Part shown: in pieces, positions 4,966-29,704 of the stretch
Layout: each line of letters starts with the position of its first letter
How positions within the stretch are numbered: position 1 is the stretch's first letter
Assembly (NCBI GenBank): GCA_002238825.1
Contig: MPNC01000009.1
Location: 1 to 64,000 of the forward strand
Direction: 5' to 3'
DNA length: 64,000 nucleotides
From: SAR202 cluster bacterium bin87
Lineage (GTDB): Bacteria; Chloroflexota; Dehalococcoidia; Lucifugimonadales; UBA3495
Position numbers and translations under genes: made by a program
Notes under the pieces: generated by a model
The model's input: only the letters and a program-made list of their open reading frames with translations
The model's database searches: none
What the model was told of the DNA's origin: nothing

Positions 4966-6354
4966 ATGAGCCCCGTCAGTTGCACGCACGCCATCTCCCT
5001 GCAGTACCAGGTACGCACCAGTCGCACCGGCTACCGAGAGATTGAACGGCTCCTGCCACTACTCGGCGAGTTCCAGAACGCCGCCGTCCGACACCGCCAA
5101 AAGCTGGCCCGAATGGGCGTGCCGACCCACGAGATCCTCCGGCATCAGAACACCGGCATCACCGACCTGCGGGCACACGACCCTAACTTCGGCAACATCT
5201 CCCGTCGCATCGTTGAGTCCGTCGCCAAGCGCGTCAACAACGCCTACTACCGCGCCTTCACGGTCCCAAACGCTGGCTTCCCGAGAACACGCTCGCCACA
5301 CGCCTTCCGCACCCTCGAAGTCTCCGAGCCTGCAATACAGCACATACAGTTCCGTGACTCGGGCATTGCCGAGATCCACATCAAGGGCTTGCCCGTCCTG
5401 TGGTTCCGAACCGACCACCGCATCAACGTCATCGAGCAACCCCGCGCCATTTGCATCACCAAACATGGCAGAAGTCTCACCGCCACGCTGGTGTACCAGT
5501 TTCCGGACTACCCTCCGCAACCAGCCAGGCTCAAGTCCTGCGGCATCGACCCAGGCGTGGCGCAACGCCTCACGGTGGTCGACAACCAAGCCCACTACCG
5601 GCAATACCCTGGCATCGACACCACCCAGCACCGGAAAACCGTACGACGGTTGAAGCGCCGCATCCAGCGCTGCCGCGACGCCGCCCTGCGCGACGGACGT
5701 GCCCGCTGGGTGAACTACCGCCGTGGTGACGGCAAACCGAAACGGCGTTTCCGGTGGATGACCAAGCCCAGTCGAAAGTACCTGCAGACCTTGGCGCAGC
5801 TCCGCAAAGTTGAGCACACGCGCATCAAGACCATGCGGGCCGAAGAACACCGCATCACGACCCAAATCGTCCAAGACCACGCACTCATCGCCATCGAGGA
5901 CACCGCCACCAGCAACATGACCCGTTCGGCCAAGGGCACCCTCGAGAACCCAAGCAAGAATGTCGCCCAGAAGCGCGGCCTCAACCGAAGCATCCTATCC
6001 CAACGCTGGGGTGCCATCTCCAGCAAGCTCGAATACAAGGCACGCTGGTATGGCCGGCAGTTCGTCAAAGTCCCTGCGGCACACACCAGTCAGACGTGCC
6101 CAGGATGTGGCCACGTCGCTGCTGAGAACCGGCCAACGCAGGACAACTTCCGGTGCATGAGGTGCCGACAAGGATTCAACGCCGACGTAGTGGCGGGAGA
6201 AAACATACGGCTCCGTGGGGGCAACCCCACGGCGGGGGCAGGAAATCCGGCCGTCAGGTCGGCCCCGGTGAACAGCCGTAGGCCTTCGGGCAAGAAGCAA
6301 CGCATACGGGCGCTTCAGCGTCCTCTGTTGCTGTTCACGACCACGCGATCCTAG
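4966..6354 (+). CDS. tnpB: TnpB, IS605-family RNA-guided nuclease
   Basis: A 462-residue TnpB/OrfB. The RuvC-like catalytic acids are in GIDPG (D195), IAIED (E311) and FNADVVAGENI (D407), and the zinc ribbon is C378-x2-C381 with C397-x2-C400, so all key residues are present. TnpB proteins are guided by omega RNA made from the element's right end and cut DNA next to a transposon-adjacent motif. The C-terminal 50 residues are encoded within the right end. There is no TnpA in the window. A TAAAAT box lies only 10 bases before the ATG, so the transcript may be nearly leaderless. It looks intact and probably functional. Confidence 0.93.
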   Translation: MSPVSCTHAISLQYQVRTSRTGYREIERLLPLLGEFQNAAVRHRQKLARMGVPTHEILRHQNTGITDLRAHDPNFGNISRRIVESVAKRVNNAYYRAFTVPNAGFPRTRSPHAFRTLEVSEPAIQHIQFRDSGIAEIHIKGLPVLWFRTDHRINVIEQPRAICITKHGRSLTATLVYQFPDYPPQPARLKSCGIDPGVAQRLTVVDNQAHYRQYPGIDTTQHRKTVRRLKRRIQRCRDAALRDGRARWVNYRRGDGKPKRRFRWMTKPSRKYLQTLAQLRKVEHTRIKTMRAEEHRITTQIVQDHALIAIEDTATSNMTRSAKGTLENPSKNVAQKRGLNRSILSQRWGAISSKLEYKARWYGRQFVKVPAAHTSQTCPGCGHVAAENRPTQDNFRCMRCRQGFNADVVAGENIRLRGGNPTAGAGNPAVRSAPVNSRRPSGKKQRIRALQRPLLLFTTTRS

Positions 6355-11372: not shown

Positions 11373-12026
11373 ATGCCCGCTGCTCAACGCGCCTTCCCCT
11401 ACATCTGGACAACCTGGCTCACCAAGCTCCTCACCGGCGAAAGCTCCTGCGAATGGGCCGCGTGGTTTCGAGCCCACCACCAGGGCTGGGAACGCCCGCC
11501 TAACGACTTCAACTTCGCCCAGTGGCAGATCGACCACACCGCGCTGCTGAACGACACCCGCCGCAAGTTCGAGGACAGCGGGTACGACGTCCGCGTCGAG
11601 GGTCAAAACGCCTTCCGGCTACAGGGCCACATCTCCACCCTCGCCGGCCAGCCGGATCTGATTGTCCTCTCCAGCGACCACATCCTCATCGTCGATGCCA
11701 AGACCGGCGTCGAGCGCGCCTCGCACGTCGCCCAGGTCATGGTCTACATGTACGCGCTGCCTCTTGCCCTCGAACAGTACCGAGACGCCCGCATCGCGGG
11801 CGAGATCCACTACCCCAACCGCATCCAGCGGGTGCCACAGGGCGGCGTGAACCAAGAGTTCATCCACCGCCTCATCACGCTCATTCACCGTGTGGCGGCG
11901 CCAGACCCGCCACCTTGGACGCCCAGCGCCGCCGAGTGCCGGTTCTGCGACATCAGCGCCGCTGACTGCCCTGAACGCGTGGACCACGACCATGTGCCCG
12001 AAAAGGGCACCACCGCTGACTTCTGA
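11373..12026 (+). CDS. PD-(D/E)XK nuclease-like protein with Cas4-like Cys set
   Basis: A 217-residue paralogue of the protein at 7100-7702. Motifs are D95 (AGQPDLI), D108-x-K110 (VDAKTG) and Q121 in VAQVMVYMYA. Cysteines C26, C189, C192 and C199 give the one-plus-three arrangement known from Fe-S cluster nucleases such as Cas4 and AddB. The C-terminal tail TTADF resembles TTDDF of the paralogue. No cas genes or CRISPR array lie in the window, so a CRISPR role is not supported. A stand-alone DNA nuclease in defence or element maintenance is plausible. ATG 11373 has only a weak ribosome-binding site. Confidence 0.85.
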   Translation: MPAAQRAFPYIWTTWLTKLLTGESSCEWAAWFRAHHQGWERPPNDFNFAQWQIDHTALLNDTRRKFEDSGYDVRVEGQNAFRLQGHISTLAGQPDLIVLSSDHILIVDAKTGVERASHVAQVMVYMYALPLALEQYRDARIAGEIHYPNRIQRVPQGGVNQEFIHRLITLIHRVAAPDPPPWTPSAAECRFCDISAADCPERVDHDHVPEKGTTADF

Positions 12027-13222: not shown

Positions 13223-13928
13223 GTGACGGTCTTCGCGACCAACGAATTTCCCCGGACGGCCGCGGCCATGGCTGCCGACTGGCCGTTGCCACTCAACCAA
13301 CGGAACCGATGCGATGGCCGAGAACTCCTGGCGCCGCTGCAGTTGGAGTTGATCCCACTCTGCATCTTCGGCCTGCAGTACCGTGGCCTGCTGGACAAGA
13401 TTCGCTACGGCAATGAAGGCGTCAGCAGAAGACGAGGCCGTTCGGGCCTCCTGCAGATGAGTGACGGGACCATCGGCGAATTCATCGCCGGCATCTCCGC
13501 CGCCTTGATCCCCTCTGGTCACCTGTTCCTGTGGGTCGACAAGTCCCACTTATGCACGGGCGTCAGATCCTGGGTGGGACAGCAGGGTCTCGAAGCCGTG
13601 GATCTCGTCACCTGGAACAAAGCCAGGATTGGCATGGGATACCGCACCCGACGCGTCGGGGAATACCTACCCATCATGCAGCAACCGCCAAAGCGCGCCG
13701 AGGGAGTCTGGCCGAGCGACCACATTCCCCAAGTGGTGACTGAAAAGGTCGAACGCATCGGCCAACGTGCATCCCAAGCCCGTGAAGCTTCAGGCGCGGT
13801 TGATCGAGGCTGTTACCAGCCCTGGCGACGTGGTGCTCGACCCCGAGGCCGGCAGCTATTCGGTGATGACCGCCGCCCACCAAGCGGGACGCCGATTCCT
13901 CGGTTGCGACATCGCAAGCGCGTTGTGA
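13223..13928 (+). pseudogene. decayed DNA methyltransferase, frameshifted
   Basis: This is a degenerate site-specific DNA methyltransferase of the type whose catalytic motif reads FDPQYRG. Recognisable blocks are YGNEG, SGHLFLWVDK, VTWNKARIGMGYRTRR and EYLPIMQ. The catalytic motif reads FGLQYRG, so the Asp and Pro are lost. Between EKVERI and the expected HPKPV block (about 13755-13767) the frame shifts by +1. In the new frame VHPKPVKLQARLIEAV and DPEAGSYSV continue to the stop at 13926-13928. Both changes argue for a pseudogene. The GTG start at 13223 is uncertain. Confidence 0.8.
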
Positions 13929-14099
13929 CCCGGCGGATGGAATGATCATGGAATGCGGCAGACGGTTACGCGCACACGGCCCGTCCGACCGCTCCACGCG
14001 TTGGTCATACAGGACGCCGCCCACTTCGGCCGCGTCGCGTAACATGACGCCATGACGACTCGACAATGACGACCCATCGTGCCCTTCCAACTCCGCTGC

Positions 14100-15377
14100 T
14101 CATATGGTCCCAGAACACGCCTGCTCGATCCGGCCACGGTTCTCGATCTGGAGTTGTACCACCCTAGGGTCCACCGCGAACCTGCCGGCGACCTCGCCAA
14201 TATCGTAGCCTTCCTGAACCATCCCCCATACCGCTTCCACCGGAGCCAGAAACTCCGCAGCGAAGGCACGACCCGCCGCCTGCCGCTCCGCGCCGTGCAA
14301 CCGATTGATCACCGAGTCCCCCTCTTCCGGAAAGCACACTGCATCGCCAATTGCCCGCGCAAGGTTGAAATTCTCGAGCCACGGACCAGCGTACCTTGGC
14401 TTACGCAAATGGACGTGCACTTCCGAACCGCGCGACACGACCCCGTCAATCCCCGACAGTCCCTCTGACCACTGGAACGACGGATTTCCCAACTTTCCGG
14501 CTATGCTGCAAACCGAATCGAACTCGTGCTCTTCCCCAACCCCTGTGGTCCGGCGAACGGCCCGAGCCAGGCGGTACGCTGCCCCCCAAACGCCTTCGCC
14601 GTCCCGACGTTCGCGAAGCATGCAGTCCACAGACTCGGCAGCAGCACGCAGCTCTGGCAATCTCCTGCTGGGTGTGAAGGTACGAGACGCTTCCTCCACC
14701 GAGGCGAGCGCTCTGTCCCGAACCTCGGGGCGCGCCAGGTTCACACCAGCCAGAAATTCAGTGAGCGGAGTACCACTCAGCACTCTGCCGGCTCCGACAA
14801 TGAACTCAGCATCCCTGTCGTCCACGACGTAGGGGTCCAACCCCAAAGCGCCAGCAGCCTCGCAAAACGCCGCCTCATCAGGGTCCTGGCGTGATTCACT
14901 CACCCGCTCCCAACGCAACTGCACTTCACTCCCCTCGATGCGCTCATGCAACAAGCGCTCGACCACGTCCCCGATGAACCCCGACAATTGGCACTCCGCC
15001 TCTTCACGTGAAATGGTCTCAGCATCAACCTGCCAGAAACGCACCCCTGGGTTTTCGCAGTTCATCTGCTCGCCCGACACCTCGAACATCGAACCATCGC
15101 AACCAAAGCTCAGACAAGGAAGGACGAAACCGGTCCCATAAGCCCAGATCGTGCGGTTACGGTCTCGCCCACCAAAGATCGACCACCAATCGGTCGCTAT
15201 GCCCTCGGCCAAATGCACAGCCGGAACAACCACGGACTCATACGCCCCCTGGGCAGCATCATCTCTGTGGGAACAAGCATTCGTGTCCCCGACGAAAATC
15301 CGCAGGTCACACATGGTTGCCCGCTCTTCAGCAGAAGCATTGGGCAAGCCGTCAATCCAATCAACCAAAAACTGCAT
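14100..15377 (-). CDS. ImmA/IrrE-like C-terminal domain protein without zinc ligands
   Basis: About 425 residues. The C-terminal 80 residues align by pattern with ImmA/IrrE (DUF955): AERQAAGRAFAAEFLAP and an RFAVDPRVVQLQIEN helix pair. Where the HELGH motif should be, the sequence is NLARAIGDAVCF, so both His ligands are missing. The N-terminal half, with VVVPAVHLAEG and WWSIFGG, is of unknown fold. ATG at 15377 is preferred over 15458 because it overlaps the upstream gene by 17 bases and opens the conserved-looking segment MQFLVDWIDG. It is probably a non-proteolytic sensor or regulator in a two-gene operon. The function is inferred. Confidence 0.65.
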   Translation of the reverse strand: MQFLVDWIDGLPNASAEERATMCDLRIFVGDTNACSHRDDAAQGAYESVVVPAVHLAEGIATDWWSIFGGRDRNRTIWAYGTGFVLPCLSFGCDGSMFEVSGEQMNCENPGVRFWQVDAETISREEAECQLSGFIGDVVERLLHERIEGSEVQLRWERVSESRQDPDEAAFCEAAGALGLDPYVVDDRDAEFIVGAGRVLSGTPLTEFLAGVNLARPEVRDRALASVEEASRTFTPSRRLPELRAAAESVDCMLRERRDGEGVWGAAYRLARAVRRTTGVGEEHEFDSVCSIAGKLGNPSFQWSEGLSGIDGVVSRGSEVHVHLRKPRYAGPWLENFNLARAIGDAVCFPEEGDSVINRLHGAERQAAGRAFAAEFLAPVEAVWGMVQEGYDIGEVAGRFAVDPRVVQLQIENRGRIEQACSGTI

Positions 15378-15672
15378 CTCTGTACTCCCTGCAGATCGGC
15401 CAACCCTTGTACTCTCCGAGACGAGGGTTGACCACGAGTCCCATCCAGAACTGACCATCAGCCTCGTACCAAACCTTCTTCGGGAATCTCTGATCAGACT
15501 CGTAGAAACGACATTGGCCAGCTCGAATCGCGGCTTTCACCCATTCGGTCGCCCGTACCTTGTCCGCCCTTTGGGTCAACGGACAAATTGTCGTAGTTTC
15601 CTTCCCAGGCCGCCCGACATGACCGCCGGTCAACTGGCGCCCCATCGGCAACCCACCCCACCACCTCACCAA
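15361..15672 (-). CDS. hypothetical protein, partner of the ImmA-like gene
   Basis: About 103 residues. The conserved-looking part runs from ICPLTQRADKVRATEW through RFPKKVWYEADG to GEYKGWPICREYR; the first 25 residues are low in signal, so the true start may be internal. Its 3' end overlaps the next gene by 17 bases, pointing to a coupled pair. No known domain was recognised. Confidence 0.55.
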   Translation of the reverse strand: MVRWWGGLPMGRQLTGGHVGRPGKETTTICPLTQRADKVRATEWVKAAIRAGQCRFYESDQRFPKKVWYEADGQFWMGLVVNPRLGEYKGWPICREYRDAVFG

Positions 15673-16215: not shown

Positions 16216-16719
16216 TTGATCATCCAAACGTTCGCCGACGGCAACGGCCGCGTAACGCGGGAGCTCGTCGCCTGGCACCTCGATGATCCGCAGCACCTGA
16301 TTGCCGTCACGACCAGCGCCAACCGCTCGAAAGGCGCACTCGGTCCAGAAGATTGGAAACCTGCAGACCGCTCCTACTGGTGCCAGTACGCCACCGATTG
16401 GATCACGATCAAGGATGATTGGAACCTCACGGTCACCTTGCGTGAAGCTGATGCGGTCAGCGGAATGCTCGACACATGCGCAAACCCGCCTAAACTGCAA
16501 ATATCAGATGGCGGCACACCGATTGCTCCACGCCCGACAAACGGCCCTCACTACCCGACGCCTACTCCAACGGTGAGAACCTACAGCTCGTGCGACGCGG
16601 CACAGGCCGCCGGCGAATCCCGCGTCCAAGGCAGCCAGGGAGGCGGCCGGAGCTTCCACAAGTGGACGGTCCCCAGCGCCCGTGATGTTGACGGCGACGG
16701 AGTAGTATGCGAAAAGTGA
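16216..16719 (+). CDS. truncated HNH (DUF1524) plus Excalibur protein
   Basis: A 167-residue reading frame. Residues around LIAVTTSANRSKGALGP, DWKPADRSYWCQYATDWI and a final C match the C-terminal half of secreted DUF1524 HNH nucleases, and the last 40 residues form an Excalibur Ca-binding domain ending [11 protein letters not shown]. The catalytic His block that should precede the NRSKG motif is absent, and an in-frame TAA lies at 16195, so it is probably N-terminally truncated. The TTG at 16216 has no good ribosome-binding site. The opening FADGNGRVTREL resembles a Fic motif by chance or fusion. Likely a decaying gene. Confidence 0.6.
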   Translation: MIIQTFADGNGRVTRELVAWHLDDPQHLIAVTTSANRSKGALGPEDWKPADRSYWCQYATDWITIKDDWNLTVTLREADAVSGMLDTCANPPKLQISDGGTPIAPRPTNGPHYPTPTPTVRTYSSCDAAQAAGESRVQGSQGGGRSFHKWTVPSARDVDGDGVVCEK

Positions 16720-16777: not shown

Positions 16778-17533
16778 TCACTCCTCAGCTGGATCCTCCC
16801 GCGGGATGTAGCGCCTAGACGACTGCACGCCCGGCTTTCGGTACTCCTCCGGAATCCTCTTACCCAGGTACTTCTCTTTATCCTTTGGTGTGGCATCGTC
16901 ACCGATGAACCCCCACCTGTTTTTAGTGGGGCCCGAGTAATCGGGAAAGTGCTCCGGCGTACCTGGCAACCATTTGGTAGGCTGATAAACGCCCTTTACT
17001 ATGTTGTTGACCACGCCAAGCACCAAACGGCGTTTCTCGGCCCGCTCTATGTCGAGGTGCCACACGCCTCGGGTCGCATCATAAAACCCGAGTTTTTGCC
17101 ACCGGTGGTTGATAGTAAAAGCAAGCAATGGTTCGTCCACCTCAAAATCCACCGCGTTGTGGTCGGCTATGATCTCATCAGCGTGACGGCATCCCCGCAA
17201 GTGGTTCTGATAACCACCTTGCTTGTTGGTCAATCCTTGGTAGCAGTCCATCAGGGCACCTTCTACCTCAAGAGCCGTATGCTCGGTCATGCCGTGCCGG
17301 TGGATGATGTGACCGACCGAAAGTCCCGCAAACTGTATTTGTGCAATCCTTTCCTGGGTGGAACCGGGCCCGTAGTCCTCCGGGTCGTATTCAACCCCTC
17401 GGGCGTGGTGAAAGACTCGGTCTCCTTGTCCCTTCCCCACGTAGAACGTTTGGCCATTGCGGGGGTCAATCAGCCGGTAGACATAGTAGTCCAGTCGCCG
17501 GACCACCTCACCCGGAAATTGTTCTGTACTCAC
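16778..17533 (-). CDS. GIY-YIG nuclease, LEM3-like
   Basis: A 251-residue protein whose N-terminus has the GIY-YIG hallmarks: YYVYRLIDP (GIY strand) and TFYVGKGQGDRVFHHA (YIG strand), followed by a helical segment with a conserved Glu (ALEVEGALMD). The layout matches LEM-3-like nucleases found in phages and mobile elements. A central WQKLGFYDATRGVWHLD region may be a DNA-recognition domain. The ATG at 17533 is in a good context. It is convergent with the truncated HNH-Excalibur gene. DNA cleavage is inferred from motifs. Confidence 0.8.
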   Translation of the reverse strand: MSTEQFPGEVVRRLDYYVYRLIDPRNGQTFYVGKGQGDRVFHHARGVEYDPEDYGPGSTQERIAQIQFAGLSVGHIIHRHGMTEHTALEVEGALMDCYQGLTNKQGGYQNHLRGCRHADEIIADHNAVDFEVDEPLLAFTINHRWQKLGFYDATRGVWHLDIERAEKRRLVLGVVNNIVKGVYQPTKWLPGTPEHFPDYSGPTKNRWGFIGDDATPKDKEKYLGKRIPEEYRKPGVQSSRRYIPREDPAEE

Positions 17534-17663: not shown

Positions 17664-17840
17664 CCACGACACGGCAACCGACGGCACCTTCCAGTAGTAC
17701 ATTCGGGCTCCTGCGGCGCCGCCCAGGCAGCGGGAGATCACTGCGTACAGGCCAGCAAGGGCGGCGGCAGGGGCTTCCCGAAGTGGATGGTCCCAAGCGC
17801 AAGGGATGGCGACGGCGACGGTGTGGTCTGCGAAAGGTAA
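17664..17840 (+). pseudogene. Excalibur-domain remnant
   Basis: The frame from 17664 (just after a stop) to the TAA at 17838-17840 reads [14 protein letters not shown], then [22 protein letters not shown]. This is clearly paralogous to the Excalibur tail of the gene at 16216-16719. There is no start or upstream domain, so it is a remnant. About 1.1 kb separates the two tails, with the GIY-YIG gene between them. Confidence 0.65.
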
Positions 17841-18575: not shown

Positions 18576-19058
18576 ATGACCCCCTACATCAACCCGCTGG
18601 GATTCATCGACCGACGCACCCAGAGGGGCGTGCGTTTCCTGCTCACTGATCCCGACGATGCCCGCATCCTCAAATCAGGAACTCCGGTTACCGTCACGCA
18701 ACCCTCCAGCGAGCGACTTGCGCTCGCCAAAATACGCGGAGAGATTGTCGCCGTAGGCTACGTGACCGCCACCTTTACAATTGTGGAAACCGTTCTTGAC
18801 CCAGAGTGGCCCGAGAGCGAGGAAACCGTGCGGGAAAAAACTCCCGTGTACCTCGCCAGGAAGGAATCTTTCGAGCCCGACCCCAGCAGAATGCTCACCC
18901 CAGAGCAGGCGGAGAGGATATGGAAGCTGTCTCGTGAGTACAACAACATCCTCCGAAACGAACGGAGCGACGACGATAAACCCACGAACTCGCCCCGTGG
19001 CTGGCCCCCAACCCAGGTTGATGGCCGTGGTCCGTTTCCTCAGCAACTTGACGAATAA
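18576..19058 (+). CDS. hypothetical protein upstream of recombinase-tail gene
   Basis: A 160-residue protein that is not recognised. The central part (GTPVTVTQPSSERLALAKI, EIVAVGYVTATFTIVET) is beta-rich. The C-terminal third is charged and then Pro/Gly-rich. AAGGAG at 18565-18570 fixes the ATG at 18576. It lies 45 bases before the stand-alone recombinase-tail gene, and the pair ends in a strong terminator at 19818, so they form an operon. A role in element excision or control is possible but unproven. Confidence 0.65.
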   Translation: MTPYINPLGFIDRRTQRGVRFLLTDPDDARILKSGTPVTVTQPSSERLALAKIRGEIVAVGYVTATFTIVETVLDPEWPESEETVREKTPVYLARKESFEPDPSRMLTPEQAERIWKLSREYNNILRNERSDDDKPTNSPRGWPPTQVDGRGPFPQQLDE

Positions 19059-19103: not shown

Positions 19104-19793
19104 ATGACCACCAAGGGAAAATCCACTCAGCAGGACTCTATCCTGAACGAAATCGTCCATTGCGCGTTCTGCGGAACCAACATGGTTCTGGATGGCGCCC
19201 TCTACATCTGCCCCTGGAAAAGCCTCGGCACAGGGGTCAATTGTTACTCGGCTTCCGTCGACGCCAAGCGCCTGGCCCTCAACCTGATGACCATCCTGGT
19301 CAACCGGGTGTTGACACCCGACACGTTGGCCGAGATCGTAGAGCGCATCCAGCGGAGCGCCAATGACAACCTGCGTAACCAGCAGAACAGGCTCGACGAC
19401 ACGGAATCGAAAATCGAGGAACTGAACCGCCGGAAGCTGGACATTCTGACCGACGTCGAGTACGGCGAAGTCCAATTCACGGAGATAGCAGACACTCTCG
19501 AAGCCATCGAGGCCGCCAGAGCCGGTTTAGCCTACGAGTCCTCAGTTTCACAGGAGGAAATCGACAAGTTGCAGTTCATCGGCGACCAGGAGGCCATCCA
19601 GTCGGTGGCACTGGACGTCGGCACCTACACCGAGTTCGCGGACCCGGAACTTGCCAGGCAACTGGCCGAAACGTTCCTCAAAGACATCCAAATCGGGGAT
19701 TCGACCGTCACCGTCAGCTACACGCATCCCATTCCGGGACCCGAGAGTGGCGAGCTCATCACGTCGGAAACCTTCCCCTTGCAGTTGGTCTGA
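19104..19793 (+). CDS. stand-alone serine-recombinase C-terminal domain
   Basis: A 229-residue protein with a zinc ribbon (C20-x2-C23, C36, C47) directly followed by the helix ALNLMTILVNRVL, a long charged coiled coil (residues about 80-160) and a C-terminal strand region ending FLKDIQIGDSTVTVSY, IPGPESGEL. This order is that of the C-terminal half of large serine recombinases. The tail resembles FIKRVDVTEGVATVFF, PLPGTKETPSG of the recombinase at 20921. There is no resolvase catalytic domain. It may be a split or remnant integrase, or a partner that modulates the integrase through coiled-coil contact, like a directionality factor. It ends at the terminator 19818-19848. Confidence 0.75.
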   Translation: MTTKGKSTQQDSILNEIVHCAFCGTNMVLDGALYICPWKSLGTGVNCYSASVDAKRLALNLMTILVNRVLTPDTLAEIVERIQRSANDNLRNQQNRLDDTESKIEELNRRKLDILTDVEYGEVQFTEIADTLEAIEAARAGLAYESSVSQEEIDKLQFIGDQEAIQSVALDVGTYTEFADPELARQLAETFLKDIQIGDSTVTVSYTHPIPGPESGELITSETFPLQLV

Positions 19794-19814: not shown

Positions 19815-19848
19815 AAAGGCCGGCCGTTGAAAGCGGCCGGCCTTTTTT
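19815..19848 (+). terminator. strong Rho-independent terminator
   Basis: A 9-bp stem GGCCGGCCG 19818-19826 / CGGCCGGCC 19834-19842 with a 7-base loop and T6 at 19843-19848; the A-run at 19815-19817 extends the stem. It closes the 18576-19793 operon. Confidence 0.9.
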
Positions 19849-19999
19849 GACAGAACTTCACGCCCACCGCAAGGTGTGCATTCCCGCCGCGGACCTGAAA
19901 AGCAAGGGAGCATGTCCCTCCGCGGGAGCTGGACAAACAGGAGCCCAGCACGGCGGGTGACCCACCGCGGCACGTCTTGCCGCCAGTCACCAGCGCCGT

Positions 20000-20305
20000 T
20001 CAATCATCGGTGGCAACCGGGTCGCAATCTTCGGCGTCCTGCCGGTCGGCGGCGCTCTGTGCTGACCGAGCATGAAACTCCCTGGCGGCAGCGGGCATTC
20101 GTTCCCAGCCCACGTCCAGGCCAACCTCTTCGCCCGTATCTGCCCCAGGTCGCCTGACCTCCCGGCTCATCTGCATCAACCGGTCAGCGATCAGCTTGTG
20201 GAGCGCTGCACTCATGTCCTCTGGCATAGCATAATTGCTGCGCCCATTCTCTTCTGAATTTCGTCCTGCCTGCTGCGGCGGACCCTTGCCTGATTCTGTT
20301 GACAT
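20000..20305 (-). CDS. small hypothetical protein divergent from XRE regulator
   Basis: A 101-residue acidic, Met/Ala-rich frame, with a helical middle (MSAALHKLIADRLMQMSREV) and a disordered tail ending DPVATDD. It is divergent from the XRE gene at 20427 over a 121-base control region, a place where excision or transfer genes are often found in integrative elements. No domain was recognised and coding status is moderate. Confidence 0.45.
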   Translation of the reverse strand: MSTESGKGPPQQAGRNSEENGRSNYAMPEDMSAALHKLIADRLMQMSREVRRPGADTGEEVGLDVGWERMPAAAREFHARSAQSAADRQDAEDCDPVATDD

Positions 20306-20426: not shown

Positions 20427-20900
20427 ATGATAGAACAAACGAGCGGACACAGTCAACGGCGCGATGACACCGAAAACGACGATGGAGAAAACCCAAAGCC
20501 GGAAACCATCGGCGAGTTGTTGAAACTACTGCGTGGCGACCGCACCTTGCGGCGAGTCGAAACCGACACCGGAATTTCGAATTCGTACCTGAGCAACCTC
20601 GAAATGGGGCGTAAGCAGCCCGGCATCAAATCCCTCTCGAAACTGGCCTCTTACTATGACGTGCCTCTGAACGGGCTGCTGTACAAAGCCGGACTTCCCT
20701 ACGACTACCGGGCCGCGAATCGACACGAAGTGCTCACCAACCCACGGGCAAACCAAGATGAAATTCTACGCAGCTACGAATTCGTGCTGACCGATCCGCA
20801 TCTGGCCCTGTATGAAAAGCCGGCGGAAGCCCCTCCGGTCGATACTCAGAAGTTCGTGGTCAAACTGTACGAGCACTACACGGGCAAGAAATTGCTGTAA
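20427..20900 (+). CDS. XRE-family transcriptional regulator
   Basis: A 157-residue protein. The HTH_3 domain spans about residues 30-90: IGELLKLLRGDRTLRRVE, GISNSYLSNLEMGRKQPGIKS with the recognition helix, then LSKLASYYDVPLNGLLYKAG. An acidic N-terminal tail and a helical C-terminal region (NQDEILRSYEFVLTDP) flank it. It lies 20 bases upstream of the serine recombinase on the same strand, so it is the likely repressor of the integration module, acting at the divergent region before it. HTH identity is secure; target and role are inferred from position. Confidence 0.88.
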   Translation: MIEQTSGHSQRRDDTENDDGENPKPETIGELLKLLRGDRTLRRVETDTGISNSYLSNLEMGRKQPGIKSLSKLASYYDVPLNGLLYKAGLPYDYRAANRHEVLTNPRANQDEILRSYEFVLTDPHLALYEKPAEAPPVDTQKFVVKLYEHYTGKKLL

Positions 20901-20920: not shown

Positions 20921-22759
20921 ATGCCCGCCAAGGAAAAAACCAACCTTGCCTACTCGTACTCGCGAAAGTCCGGCCCTGGCCGGAACCAACTTTCGCTCTC
21001 TGGACAGCACAGGGATGAGTTGCTGTACATGGAACGAAATGGATTGGTCGAACTTGAACACTTCGAGGACATCGGAACAGGCCTCGACACCGACGACAGA
21101 GACGGTTTCCTCAGGATGATCGCGAAGGCCCTAGACCCTGCGAACAGAGCTTCGCACCTGGTCTTCTACGACCTGTCCAGGTTCACCCGAAGCAAGATCG
21201 ACCCGCATGTCTACCTCGAATTGTTCGACGAGCACGACATCACCGTCCATACCGTGATGGACGGTGAACGCTCCGAGACTGACGACATCGCTTGGGACAT
21301 CAAGTTCTCGCTCAACCATGGTCAATCCAGAATGATCTCTCTTCTCTCCATGAGGGGTAAGCGGGACGCCATCGAGGCCGGTTTCGCCCCCAGCTCGAAA
21401 ATCCCTTACGGATACAAGCGCGGTTGGGTGACCTCGGGACAAAGCCAGAGTCCCATCTACGTGCCGCACGAAGTTCACGCCGAGCACGTCAAAATGATGT
21501 TCCAGATGAGAGACGAAGGCAGCACCACCGGCGACATCATCATGGAACTCTACCGACGGGAAATCCCGAGCCCAAAGGGCCACCCCATATGGCCAAAAGC
21601 CTCCGTAATTAGGATCTTGCGCAACCGCGCATACCTAGGGGAAGCGGAATTCTTCAAAACGTCCAGGTCGAAGTTCCCCAGAAACCGCCGGCAATTCGAG
21701 CAAACCACGACCGAAGGTGCCCACGAACCCTTGGTCGAACCAGAACGTTTCAAGCGTGTGCAGAAATCAATAGATGATGCTGGCCGGCACGGAACAGCTT
21801 CGCCGAGGTCCCACGACAGTCCCAATCCGCTTAGCGAACGGATCAAGTGCACAACCTGTCACACCGACCCTGGCACCACTCCTCCCAACATGATCGTGAA
21901 GAACAGCAAAAACGGCAAGAAGCTGACCTGCAGCAGAAAGAAAAACAACGGCGTGGCGTTCTGCCAGTCAAAAGACGTCCCGTTGGATCCTTTCCTGAAC
22001 CTCATCGTAAGCGCCCTTCTCGAGAGGGCCATCACCAGAGAGGTCATGGAAGACCAGATCGAGCACATCAAAGTGAACAGCGCCCAGTTGGTCTCCGAGG
22101 AGAAGGAACGCCAGGCCGCCATCAAGAAACGCACCAAGGCAATCGAAAGAGAAGAAGCCAGCCTGGCCAAGACCATTGGCAGCTACAAGGATACTCATCC
22201 AACGGCGACTGCCCGTCTCATGGACGACCTGGAGAAACTGGGACTGGAGAAAGCGGACCTCGAAGCCCAAAGACGCGACCTAGACGATGAGGTTTCGGAA
22301 ACCATCACATTTGCCACCGAGCCTGAAGCGGTCATCGAAGCCGCGCTGGATCTGAGGACCTACCTGGAAGCTGACGACCCATCCACGGCGAAGAAGTTCC
22401 TGAAGGGATTTATCAAGCGAGTGGACGTCACCGAGGGGGTCGCCACCGTTTTCTTCGGCTTTCCACTACCGGGCACGAAGGAAACTCCGTCCGGACACTC
22501 GGCTACGTTATCGTTGGACGATGACGAAATTCTTTTGGACAACCGTATCCCCGCTTTCGCGGGAACCCAGAATGGCGCTATTCACAACGGACTATGGATT
22601 CCAGCTCTCGCCGGAATGACGGTTGGGGATCCTCCACAATCATATGACCCTGGTTCCAGGAACAGTCGAGCTATTATGGATTCAAGCCACCGGATGCCCG
22701 CTTTTGACGGATGCCGCAGTCCGATGGACGGATTGGGCGCTCCCCCAGGTTTGAGATAG
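20921..22759 (+). CDS. large serine recombinase (element integrase)
   Basis: A 612-residue protein. The resolvase domain has nucleophile Ser17 in YSRKSG and the conserved arginines in VFYDLSRFTRS. The recombinase domain follows (PYGYKRGW, SVIRILRNRAYLGEAEF), then a zinc ribbon (CTTC, TCSRKK, FCQSK), a long coiled coil and a beta tail ending FGFPLPGTKE. The last 75 or so residues (from about 22537) are encoded by an interspersed repeat, IPAFAGT and WIPALAGM, so the natural C-terminus was probably fused to target DNA at integration. AAGGAG 20909-20914 sets the start. It would insert and excise the accessory element. Function is secure by family. Confidence 0.93.
   Translation: MPAKEKTNLAYSYSRKSGPGRNQLSLSGQHRDELLYMERNGLVELEHFEDIGTGLDTDDRDGFLRMIAKALDPANRASHLVFYDLSRFTRSKIDPHVYLELFDEHDITVHTVMDGERSETDDIAWDIKFSLNHGQSRMISLLSMRGKRDAIEAGFAPSSKIPYGYKRGWVTSGQSQSPIYVPHEVHAEHVKMMFQMRDEGSTTGDIIMELYRREIPSPKGHPIWPKASVIRILRNRAYLGEAEFFKTSRSKFPRNRRQFEQTTTEGAHEPLVEPERFKRVQKSIDDAGRHGTASPRSHDSPNPLSERIKCTTCHTDPGTTPPNMIVKNSKNGKKLTCSRKKNNGVAFCQSKDVPLDPFLNLIVSALLERAITREVMEDQIEHIKVNSAQLVSEEKERQAAIKKRTKAIEREEASLAKTIGSYKDTHPTATARLMDDLEKLGLEKADLEAQRRDLDDEVSETITFATEPEAVIEAALDLRTYLEADDPSTAKKFLKGFIKRVDVTEGVATVFFGFPLPGTKETPSGHSATLSLDDDEILLDNRIPAFAGTQNGAIHNGLWIPALAGMTVGDPPQSYDPGSRNSRAIMDSSHRMPAFDGCRSPMDGLGAPPGLR
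22544..22620. repeat. 77-bp interspersed palindromic repeat
   Basis: This is homologous, in inverse orientation, to 50270-50346, and both are 77 bases long. Ends of type CCGCTTTCGCGGGAA and TTCCAGCTCTCGCCGGAAT form inverted arms. It sits inside the 3' end of the recombinase frame and may mark the junction with chromosomal DNA. Confidence 0.7.
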
Positions 22760-23538: not shown

Positions 23539-24411
23539 TTACCCTTGCGTCACGTCCGCCTCGCTGGTGCCGGTCAGTTCGTAGGATCGGTTGATGAACG
23601 TCCCGACGGCCAGGTTTATCTCCTCGCGGAAACGGTCTCTATCGACGTCGTTCATACGGAATGCGGTACCGCTGTACCGGTAGTTTACGGCGTAGAGGGT
23701 GAGCCAGTTGTCCGGCCCCCCGGCGTAGCCGGCGTTGGGAAACGAGGTGTAGTTGATCAGCAATCGCAGCTGCGCCGCCGCCAGCGTGTTGGCCTCTGCG
23801 GGGTCGCCGAGGATTTGGCTGGCGACCTCGCGCAGGTCATGTACCGCGCGGTATTCCAGGCCGGCCGCCGACAGCCAAGCCTTGATGGCATTCTCCACGG
23901 CCTGCTGGGCGTGGAAGCCGTACATCTCCTGGTCACTGTCGTCAAAGTCGACCAAGCGATTAAATGCTCGCATGTGGCGGTACGCCGCCTGGAGCCGTTC
24001 TTTCACGTCCGGCCAACTGTCGGGATATCCGTCCTCGTAGGCTCCGGAAAGGTCCAGGTTCTCGTCGCTCATTAATACTCCGTCCCGCATTGCCTGCGCG
24101 GCCACGTGGTTTTTGGCGCGGCGGCAGTAGTTGAACGTCCGCGCATCCATGGTGACCACGTCCACGCGGAGGCGCGGCGGATGGTCGCGGAAGTACTCGC
24201 GGGCAACTCTGGTGGCCAGACCCCTGCCAGCCGACGGGCCGGACTCGGATATGATCAGCAGATCAACGTCGGAGTTCGGACGATGATCGCCCCGGGCCCG
24301 GGAGCCGAACAATATCACCGTGTCCGGCGCGACCGCGGACTGTACCGCCCGGGCGACTTCAACGCCAATCCGGTCGGGGGCGCTTACCTGGCCAATGGCG
24401 CGTTCCATCAT
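23539..24411 (-). CDS. fused nucleotidyltransferase-HEPN protein
   Basis: A 290-residue protein. The N-terminal minimal nucleotidyltransferase (MNT) domain has GSRARGDHRPNSDVDLL at residues 36-52 with D48 and D50, and a third acid in RLRVDVV. The C-terminal HEPN domain (from about residue 130) has FHAQQAVENAIKAWL and HDLREVASQI, typical of the COG2250-type. MNT and HEPN usually occur as separate antitoxin and toxin genes in which MNT modifies HEPN; here both are in one chain. It may be an autoregulated toxin-antitoxin or a nucleotidyltransferase of other use. It is a single gene with no partner nearby. Confidence 0.88.
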   Translation of the reverse strand: MMERAIGQVSAPDRIGVEVARAVQSAVAPDTVILFGSRARGDHRPNSDVDLLIISESGPSAGRGLATRVAREYFRDHPPRLRVDVVTMDARTFNYCRRAKNHVAAQAMRDGVLMSDENLDLSGAYEDGYPDSWPDVKERLQAAYRHMRAFNRLVDFDDSDQEMYGFHAQQAVENAIKAWLSAAGLEYRAVHDLREVASQILGDPAEANTLAAAQLRLLINYTSFPNAGYAGGPDNWLTLYAVNYRYSGTAFRMNDVDRDRFREEINLAVGTFINRSYELTGTSEADVTQG

Positions 24412-24501
24412 TTGATCATTTCCAAAGGAATGAGGTGGTCCGTCCGTCGCGATTTGGGGGCTCCGTGTGCTGATTCGTACCCAGCCTGGCGGCAGGGAAA
24501 T

Positions 24502-24600
24502 GTCAGAATCAGGATTTGCCGGATTTACGGATTAGCAGGATTAGGAGCGCCCTGCACCAAACCGTCTCAATCCGTGAATCCTGATAATCCTGATTCTGAC
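24502..24600. repeat. 99-bp palindromic repeat, copy 1
   Basis: GTCAGAATCAGGATT at 24502-24516 is the exact inverse complement of the last 15 bases, AATCCTGATTCTGAC (24586-24600). It is homologous to 29429-29529, including about 20 bases of left flank with TACCCAG. It lies in the 272-base gap before the asparaginase-like gene. Confidence 0.8.
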
Positions 24601-24684
24601 AGTCTCTCCGAAGCGGGCACGCGTGAGGCTCGGTACGGACTCGATTCTAGCACCGGGACCGCGCACGGATCGGGCTCGATGCCA

Positions 24685-29376: not shown

Positions 29377-29428
29377 AATGCAAACATCCTGATCTTGCTC
29401 ATGCGTACCCAGTTTGCGGCGGGGCAAC

Positions 29429-29529
29429 GTCAGAATCTGGATTTACAAGATTTGGGGATTATCAGGATTGGAACCGTTCCGTAATGGAGATATCCCAATC
29501 CTGCCCAATCGTAAAATCCTGTTTCTGAC
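29429..29529. repeat. 101-bp palindromic repeat, copy 2
   Basis: Begins GTCAGAATCTGGATT and ends AATCCTGTTTCTGAC, forming an imperfect inverted repeat homologous to 24502-24600. It occupies part of the 397-base gap before hflK. Confidence 0.8.
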
Positions 29530-29704
29530 GATTTGCAAAAATGTGTACCGATAAGCCTGATGTTGACTGCCCCGCGCGGCCCGCGGCATCGACCTCGAAA
29601 CACCGCCCAATGCGGCCAGTCGATTATAAACCGCCTGCCAGCGTTGATGTTATACTGTCTCGGCCAACCGTCCAAAAATTGTACTGGAAATCGCTGATTG
29701 CGCC

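Follow-up and report, generated by a model that had tools for sequence, protein, structure and literature searches.

The window, a 64,000-nt stretch of contig MPNC01000009.1 from SAR202 cluster bacterium bin87, carries a gene, SA1, that may best be explained as an ancient paralogue of a large serine recombinase (LSR), corresponding to the C-terminal half of that enzyme only; an LSR-driven mobile element would have retained it as a regulator in its own right. We give this reading a probability of about 0.5. SA1 denotes the stand-alone form with zinc domain and coiled coil; relatives in which the coiled coil is missing are called CC-less. The features of the module are listed in Table 1.

Table 1. 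Positions of SA1 and neighbouring features in the window
Feature	Position	Strand	Description
Partner gene	18576-19058	+	160 aa; predicted HAS-type beta barrel and C-terminal helix
SA1	19104-19793	+	229 aa; LSR zinc domain, coiled coil and terminal beta hairpin
SA1 zinc ribbon	19161-19244	+	Ligands C20, C23, C36 and C47
SA1 antiparallel coiled coil	19317-19580	+	Helices 72-119 and 125-159, AlphaFold2 model
Intrinsic terminator	19817-19851 (hairpin 19817-19843)	+	Closes the partner-SA1 unit; hairpin z -4.3
Small acidic ORF	20000-20305	-	101 aa, divergent from XRE; W-x-x-M-P motif, weakly conserved
XRE-family helix-turn-helix regulator	20427-20900	+	157 aa, conserved C-terminal segment; HTH_3 E 3.9e-9
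Complete LSR	20921-22759	+	612 aa; Resolvase and Recombinase Pfam domains; phrog_95 E 2e-62

SA1 matched the PHROG integrase family phrog_95 over positions 364-562 of 651 only, that is, over its C-terminal part (E 3.8e-11); the N-terminal resolvase catalytic domain is absent, and no Recombinase (RD) domain was matched. Five of the six members of the SA1 family matched Pfam Zn_ribbon_recom, and the four zinc ligands, arranged as CxxC...C...C, are invariant across all six. The AlphaFold2 model, calculated from a shallow alignment of six sequences (pLDDT 78.5, pTM 0.54), consists of the zinc ribbon, a long antiparallel coiled coil, helices, and a terminal beta hairpin. When this model was compared with the PDB using Foldseek, the best eight matches were serine integrases, with LI integrase (4kis) first (E 2.7e-3). 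In VIA-align, 4kis again ranked first (Z 11.1), but many coiled coils scored close behind, so that the evidence for the fold rests on the whole arrangement together with the sequence. These results bear out the sequence-only reading, which had recognized a C-terminal LSR half without the catalytic domain in this gene and a full recombinase 1.1 kb downstream; the complete LSR starts 1.13 kb past the end of SA1.

Homologues of SA1 were found on two other contigs of the same genome (C17 and C45), in both cases close to an LSR, and in three relatives (G001, G038, and G035). The six proteins form a distinct family with mutual identities of 19-46%, and a profile built from them recovered the members at E 1e-70 to 1e-98, with the next match at 1e-35. 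The window, C17, C45, and G001 share the order partner gene, SA1, XRE regulator, LSR, with all genes in one orientation; in G001, the contig stops 36 bases into the LSR. In G038, the order SA1-XRE-LSR is kept and the partner is missing. Altogether, five of the six SA1 genes adjoin XRE and LSR genes. In a sixth module (G003 C39), the partner has diverged, the zinc-domain protein is CC-less, and an XRE regulator is accompanied by an LSR from another lineage. Linkage to an LSR, which had been proposed as a check on the gene, is thus conserved at six of seven loci (six SA1 and one CC-less). On contig C41 of G035, SA1 is present, the partner is missing, and no LSR lies on the 31 kb of the contig. 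A 210-aa ORF next to this SA1 (L040, 7723-8355, minus strand) has a recombinase domain only and an acidic N-terminus, and the locus looks like an LSR without catalytic domain, split over two genes in swapped order.

In the crystal structure of LI integrase, the beta11-beta12 hairpin and the following turn sit in the DNA major groove (PMC3783163), and it is this DNA-contacting hairpin to which the C2-C3 hairpin of the zinc ribbon corresponds (PMC3783163). We compared the ribbons, defined as four residues before the first cysteine to six after the last, of 11 stand-alone proteins and 55 distinct LSRs, all drawn from the same searches and related rather than independent. The net charge was -3 to +1 in the stand-alone proteins (n=11) and +2 to +9 in the LSRs (n=55), without overlap (U=0, p 1.5e-7; p-values are descriptive because the compared sequences are related). 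For the four module LSRs, which were part of a smaller comparison set, it was +6 to +8. The C2-C3 hairpin comprised 11-15 residues in the six SA1 proteins, compared with 16-23 (mostly 18) in LSRs. SA1 of the window has a ribbon net charge of -2 and a hairpin of 12 residues. Loss of the DNA-contacting face, which the sequence-only reading did not contain, is the clearest change common to the stand-alone proteins, and its simplest reading is that such a protein does not grip att sites in the manner of an LSR. We also considered a free DNA-binding competitor for att sites, which is unlikely given the comparison of ribbon charge and hairpin.

CC-less relatives occur at L041 (5398-6057), L039 (8036-8695), L116 (361-894), L148 (9712-10251), and L117. 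They keep the ribbon and the terminal segment, with a short or low-complexity stretch in the place of the coiled coil. It had been suggested that a free coiled coil could bias integration versus excision. This idea fared less well, since the CC-less relatives, one of them in a complete module of another genome, keep the zinc domain; a mechanism based on the coiled coil thus cannot apply throughout, and it is weakened at least for the CC-less forms. Some of these genes are themselves carried by a repeat: L116 1-1952 and L148 (reverse) are copies of a ~2-kb element, 95% identical and situated at contig ends, and a third copy in L039 carries a frameshifted CC-less gene (SA2b).

Several results bear on whether SA1 is a kept gene or a fragment. 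A six-frame search of the 2 kb preceding each of the seven loci revealed no remnant of a catalytic or recombinase domain (positive control, 1.4e-71); nor did any of the relatives among them show the intact catalytic frame that would have marked SA1 as a truncation. In a maximum-likelihood tree, the four module LSRs fell in a clade with support of 100/99 that contained no SA1, and the SA1 node itself was weakly supported (53/85). To judge from this tree, SA1 is not derived from the LSR of its own module, and a single origin of SA1 would be the most parsimonious, its own node being weak. Recent truncation of an LSR was ruled out by the homologue family, the tree, and the absent upstream remnants.

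It is also conceivable that SA1 is a decaying or selfish remnant, namely duplicated LSR ends retained by chance and hitchhiking. High divergence is what such a remnant would show, and the frameshift of SA2b, the omega of 0.80 for the SA2a pair, and the missing partner in G038 and G035 agree with it. Yet open frames and zinc ligands have been kept at 19-30% identity, the gene order is conserved, and the change has one common direction, loss of charge. Moreover, the closest SA1 pair gave pN 0.35 versus pS 0.54 (omega 0.49, Fisher p 7e-6), which points to significant purifying selection. The remaining SA1 pairs approach saturation; the two CC-less pairs, the SA2a pair and another with omega 0.55, are not decisive. 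We regard decay as highly improbable; the view that SA1 is a kept gene is supported by the lack of upstream remnants and by a linkage to LSRs that persists despite SA1 identities of 19-46%.

The partner gene pointed out in the sequence-only reading proved real and conserved, and the strong terminator that it named was confirmed after SA1 (Table 1). AAGGAG precedes the ATG of the partner gene, which ends 45 bases before SA1. In L037, L038, and L041, the stand-alone gene is preceded by homologues of the partner with 42-46% identity, and in L117 by a diverged one. No Pfam family was matched by the partner at E 1. A search with its AlphaFold2 model, calculated from four sequences (pLDDT 79.5), gave 50 VIA rows, nearly all of them barrels of HerA, F1/ATP synthase, or FliI (Z 7.9-9.7, rmsd 2.1-4.1), the best with Z 9.7 over 85 residues; Foldseek alone gave a weak match (E 0.045). 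The partner is thus predicted to be a HerA/ATP-synthase-type (HAS) barrel. It has a predicted barrel like those of HerA, F1-ATPase, and FliI, but differs from these proteins in being free-standing, in lacking the ATPase domain, and in having no Pfam sequence match.

Because the partner and SA1 form a transcription unit of their own with a terminator, they might constitute an independent system, such as a defence or toxin-antitoxin system, that travels with the LSR and in which the ribbon and coiled coil were recruited for another binding job. HAS barrels are known in HerA-type proteins, including defence complexes, and SA1 in G035 adjoins the recombinase-domain-only ORF and is not near an LSR. 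We consider such a system quite unlikely, because PADLOC gave no meaningful match and because the position directly upstream of XRE-LSR is kept in diverged modules, including the one with the other LSR lineage (L117).

Downstream of the terminator, the XRE regulators share 44-49% identity across modules. In the LSRs of four modules, R15, S17, R87, and R90 (the catalytic serine and arginines) and the four zinc cysteines are invariant. The conserved part of the window LSR ends at about 22511, and its frame extends beyond this point into a REP-like palindrome doublet (22540-22625); the LSR frames of L037, L038, and L042 likewise end in apparent repeat-derived peptides. We dropped the doublet behind the LSR as a possible att junction: it is a dispersed repeat with about 50 copies in the genome and looks whole.

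The small acidic gene divergent from the XRE gene is a candidate directionality factor or antirepressor and, as such, a rival to SA1 as the control factor. It might itself be the directionality factor (RDF), with SA1 only an auxiliary that stabilizes or titrates the acidic protein. An acidic ORF occurs at the matching place and strand in L037, L038, and L041, with a short, unsure counterpart in L042, and also at the equivalent place beside an XRE-LSR pair of a relative that has no SA1. Such a constant position would suit an RDF, as would the size of the protein, since many known RDFs are small (PMC5814800). A W-x-x-M-P-like motif recurs in four modules, but the identity is only 12-26%, and given this weak conservation we think it very unlikely that the acidic protein is the RDF with SA1 as a mere auxiliary.

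Since SA1 presumably lacks the ability of an LSR zinc domain to hold att sites, it would act through protein contact with an LSR, a step to which we assign roughly even chances. SA1 may dock on the coiled coil of the LSR or on the zinc-domain hinge, to which the RDF gp3 attaches in its own integrase. By competing with coiled-coil contacts, docked SA1 would block attP x attB synapsis, and it might relieve the autoinhibition of attL x attR, with the net effect that the integrase is restrained or excision is favoured. Given protein contact, a net limiter and an excision promoter seem about equally likely. Several observations speak against this reading: in most modules, SA1 resembles its own LSR no more closely than it does other LSRs; the SA1 of G035 has no LSR on its contig; CC-less relatives exist; and the small acidic gene is an RDF candidate of equal merit. 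The HAS-barrel partner probably scaffolds or oligomerizes SA1. The whole scheme would amount to domain mimicry: a free HAS-barrel protein would hold a DNA-blind paralogue of the zinc domain and coiled coil of the integrase, and this paralogue, by docking on the enzyme, would determine how far integration or excision prevails; we put it forward tentatively, as possible but doubtful in its full form.

SA1 shares the four-cysteine ribbon, the inserted coiled coil, and the terminal beta hairpin with the C-terminal half of LI/A118 integrase (4kis; PMC3783163), but it is a separate gene with no catalytic or recombinase domain, its hairpin is short, and its ribbon lacks a positive face. Like phiC31 gp3 (PMC5814800) and other RDFs, SA1 would bind the integrase at its zinc domain or coiled coil, and its gene adjoins the integrase gene. 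Modules of the same order with an XRE gene, an ImmA-like gene, and an LSR have in common with the SA1 modules an XRE of the same family and the LSR; they differ in the ImmA-like gene, in some cases in a small RHH-like gene between XRE and LSR, and in having no stand-alone zinc domain. The Tn5 inhibitor and the P-element KP repressor are catalysis-deficient transposase relatives that act as regulators; they arise from the same gene or through internal deletions. SA1 is likewise a partial recombinase copy, but as a long-diverged separate gene that has lost its DNA face. RDFs are not known to be LSR paralogues, in contrast to SA1. In the open-access literature, to which the search was limited, we found no account of a free-standing serine-recombinase zinc domain that acts as a regulator.

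Protein contact with an LSR could also serve immunity, if SA1, instead of serving its own LSR, poisoned the LSRs of competing elements via mixed complexes and thereby caused superinfection exclusion. Potential targets abound, with LSR-like matches in relatives numbering up to 18 in G035, 10 in G117, and 6 in G032. SA1 diverges faster than the XRE regulator of the same module (46% versus 65% identity in one pair), CC-less copies and one SA1 lie away from any LSR, and many defence-related genes are present in the surroundings. However, five of the six SA1 genes stay linked to one LSR module, which a free immunity gene need not do, and we judge this role unlikely.

The distribution of SA1 is narrow, being confined to one family of Chloroflexi metagenome genomes. 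SA1 was searched for in samples of the order (247 genomes) and the phylum (400), the partner in samples of the order (250) and the class (393), and all members of either came from one family; these results concern MAGs or draft assemblies (4.83% contamination in the genome of the window) and six SA1 members. Among GTDB contigs and viral contigs, the partner family was found at the G001 locus only, and the query P0001 had no match in genome contigs, phages, or plasmids. Attachment sites and element ends were looked for and not found, and there was no clean empty site among the same-genus genomes examined, because the host gene order on the right flank differs in every one of them.

The first 18,000 nt of the window are rich in defence-like genes, including a GmrSD N-domain (87-2006), a Cas4/PDDEXK-like protein (11373-12026), MTase_II (13223-13945), and an Excalibur and GmrSD_C-like protein (16216-16719). 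A GIY-YIG protein (16778-17533, minus strand) strongly matches the anti-phage system PD-T4-3 (E 1.4e-74), and a TnpB/Cas12f-like protein is encoded at 4966-6354 (plus strand). A 452-aa ORF (14100-15458, minus strand) has an IrrE/ImmA-like C-terminal segment by eye and no family match; a copy with 80% identity lies upstream of the C45 module, the genes of which are only 28-49% identical. On the other side of the module, a single protein combines an MNT nucleotidyltransferase with a HEPN domain (23539-24411, minus strand). Repeats are also present: a 132-nt direct repeat, 77% identical (16586-16717 and 17707-17838), and a dispersed repeat of ~165 bp (24470-24628 and 29398-29548), which occurs dozens of times in the genome and also at a synteny break in G010.

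A central question about serine integrases is how they are made either to integrate or to excise, and the few known RDFs show no evident common origin. If the domain-mimicry scheme is true, SA1 would represent a class of directionality or inhibition factors with its evolutionary origin in the recombinase. With a conserved, DNA-blind version of the regulatory half of an integrase, the contacts of the coiled coil and zinc domain would become testable in isolation, and integrase tools could gain from an SA1-type protein a small brake or switch that is genetically encoded.
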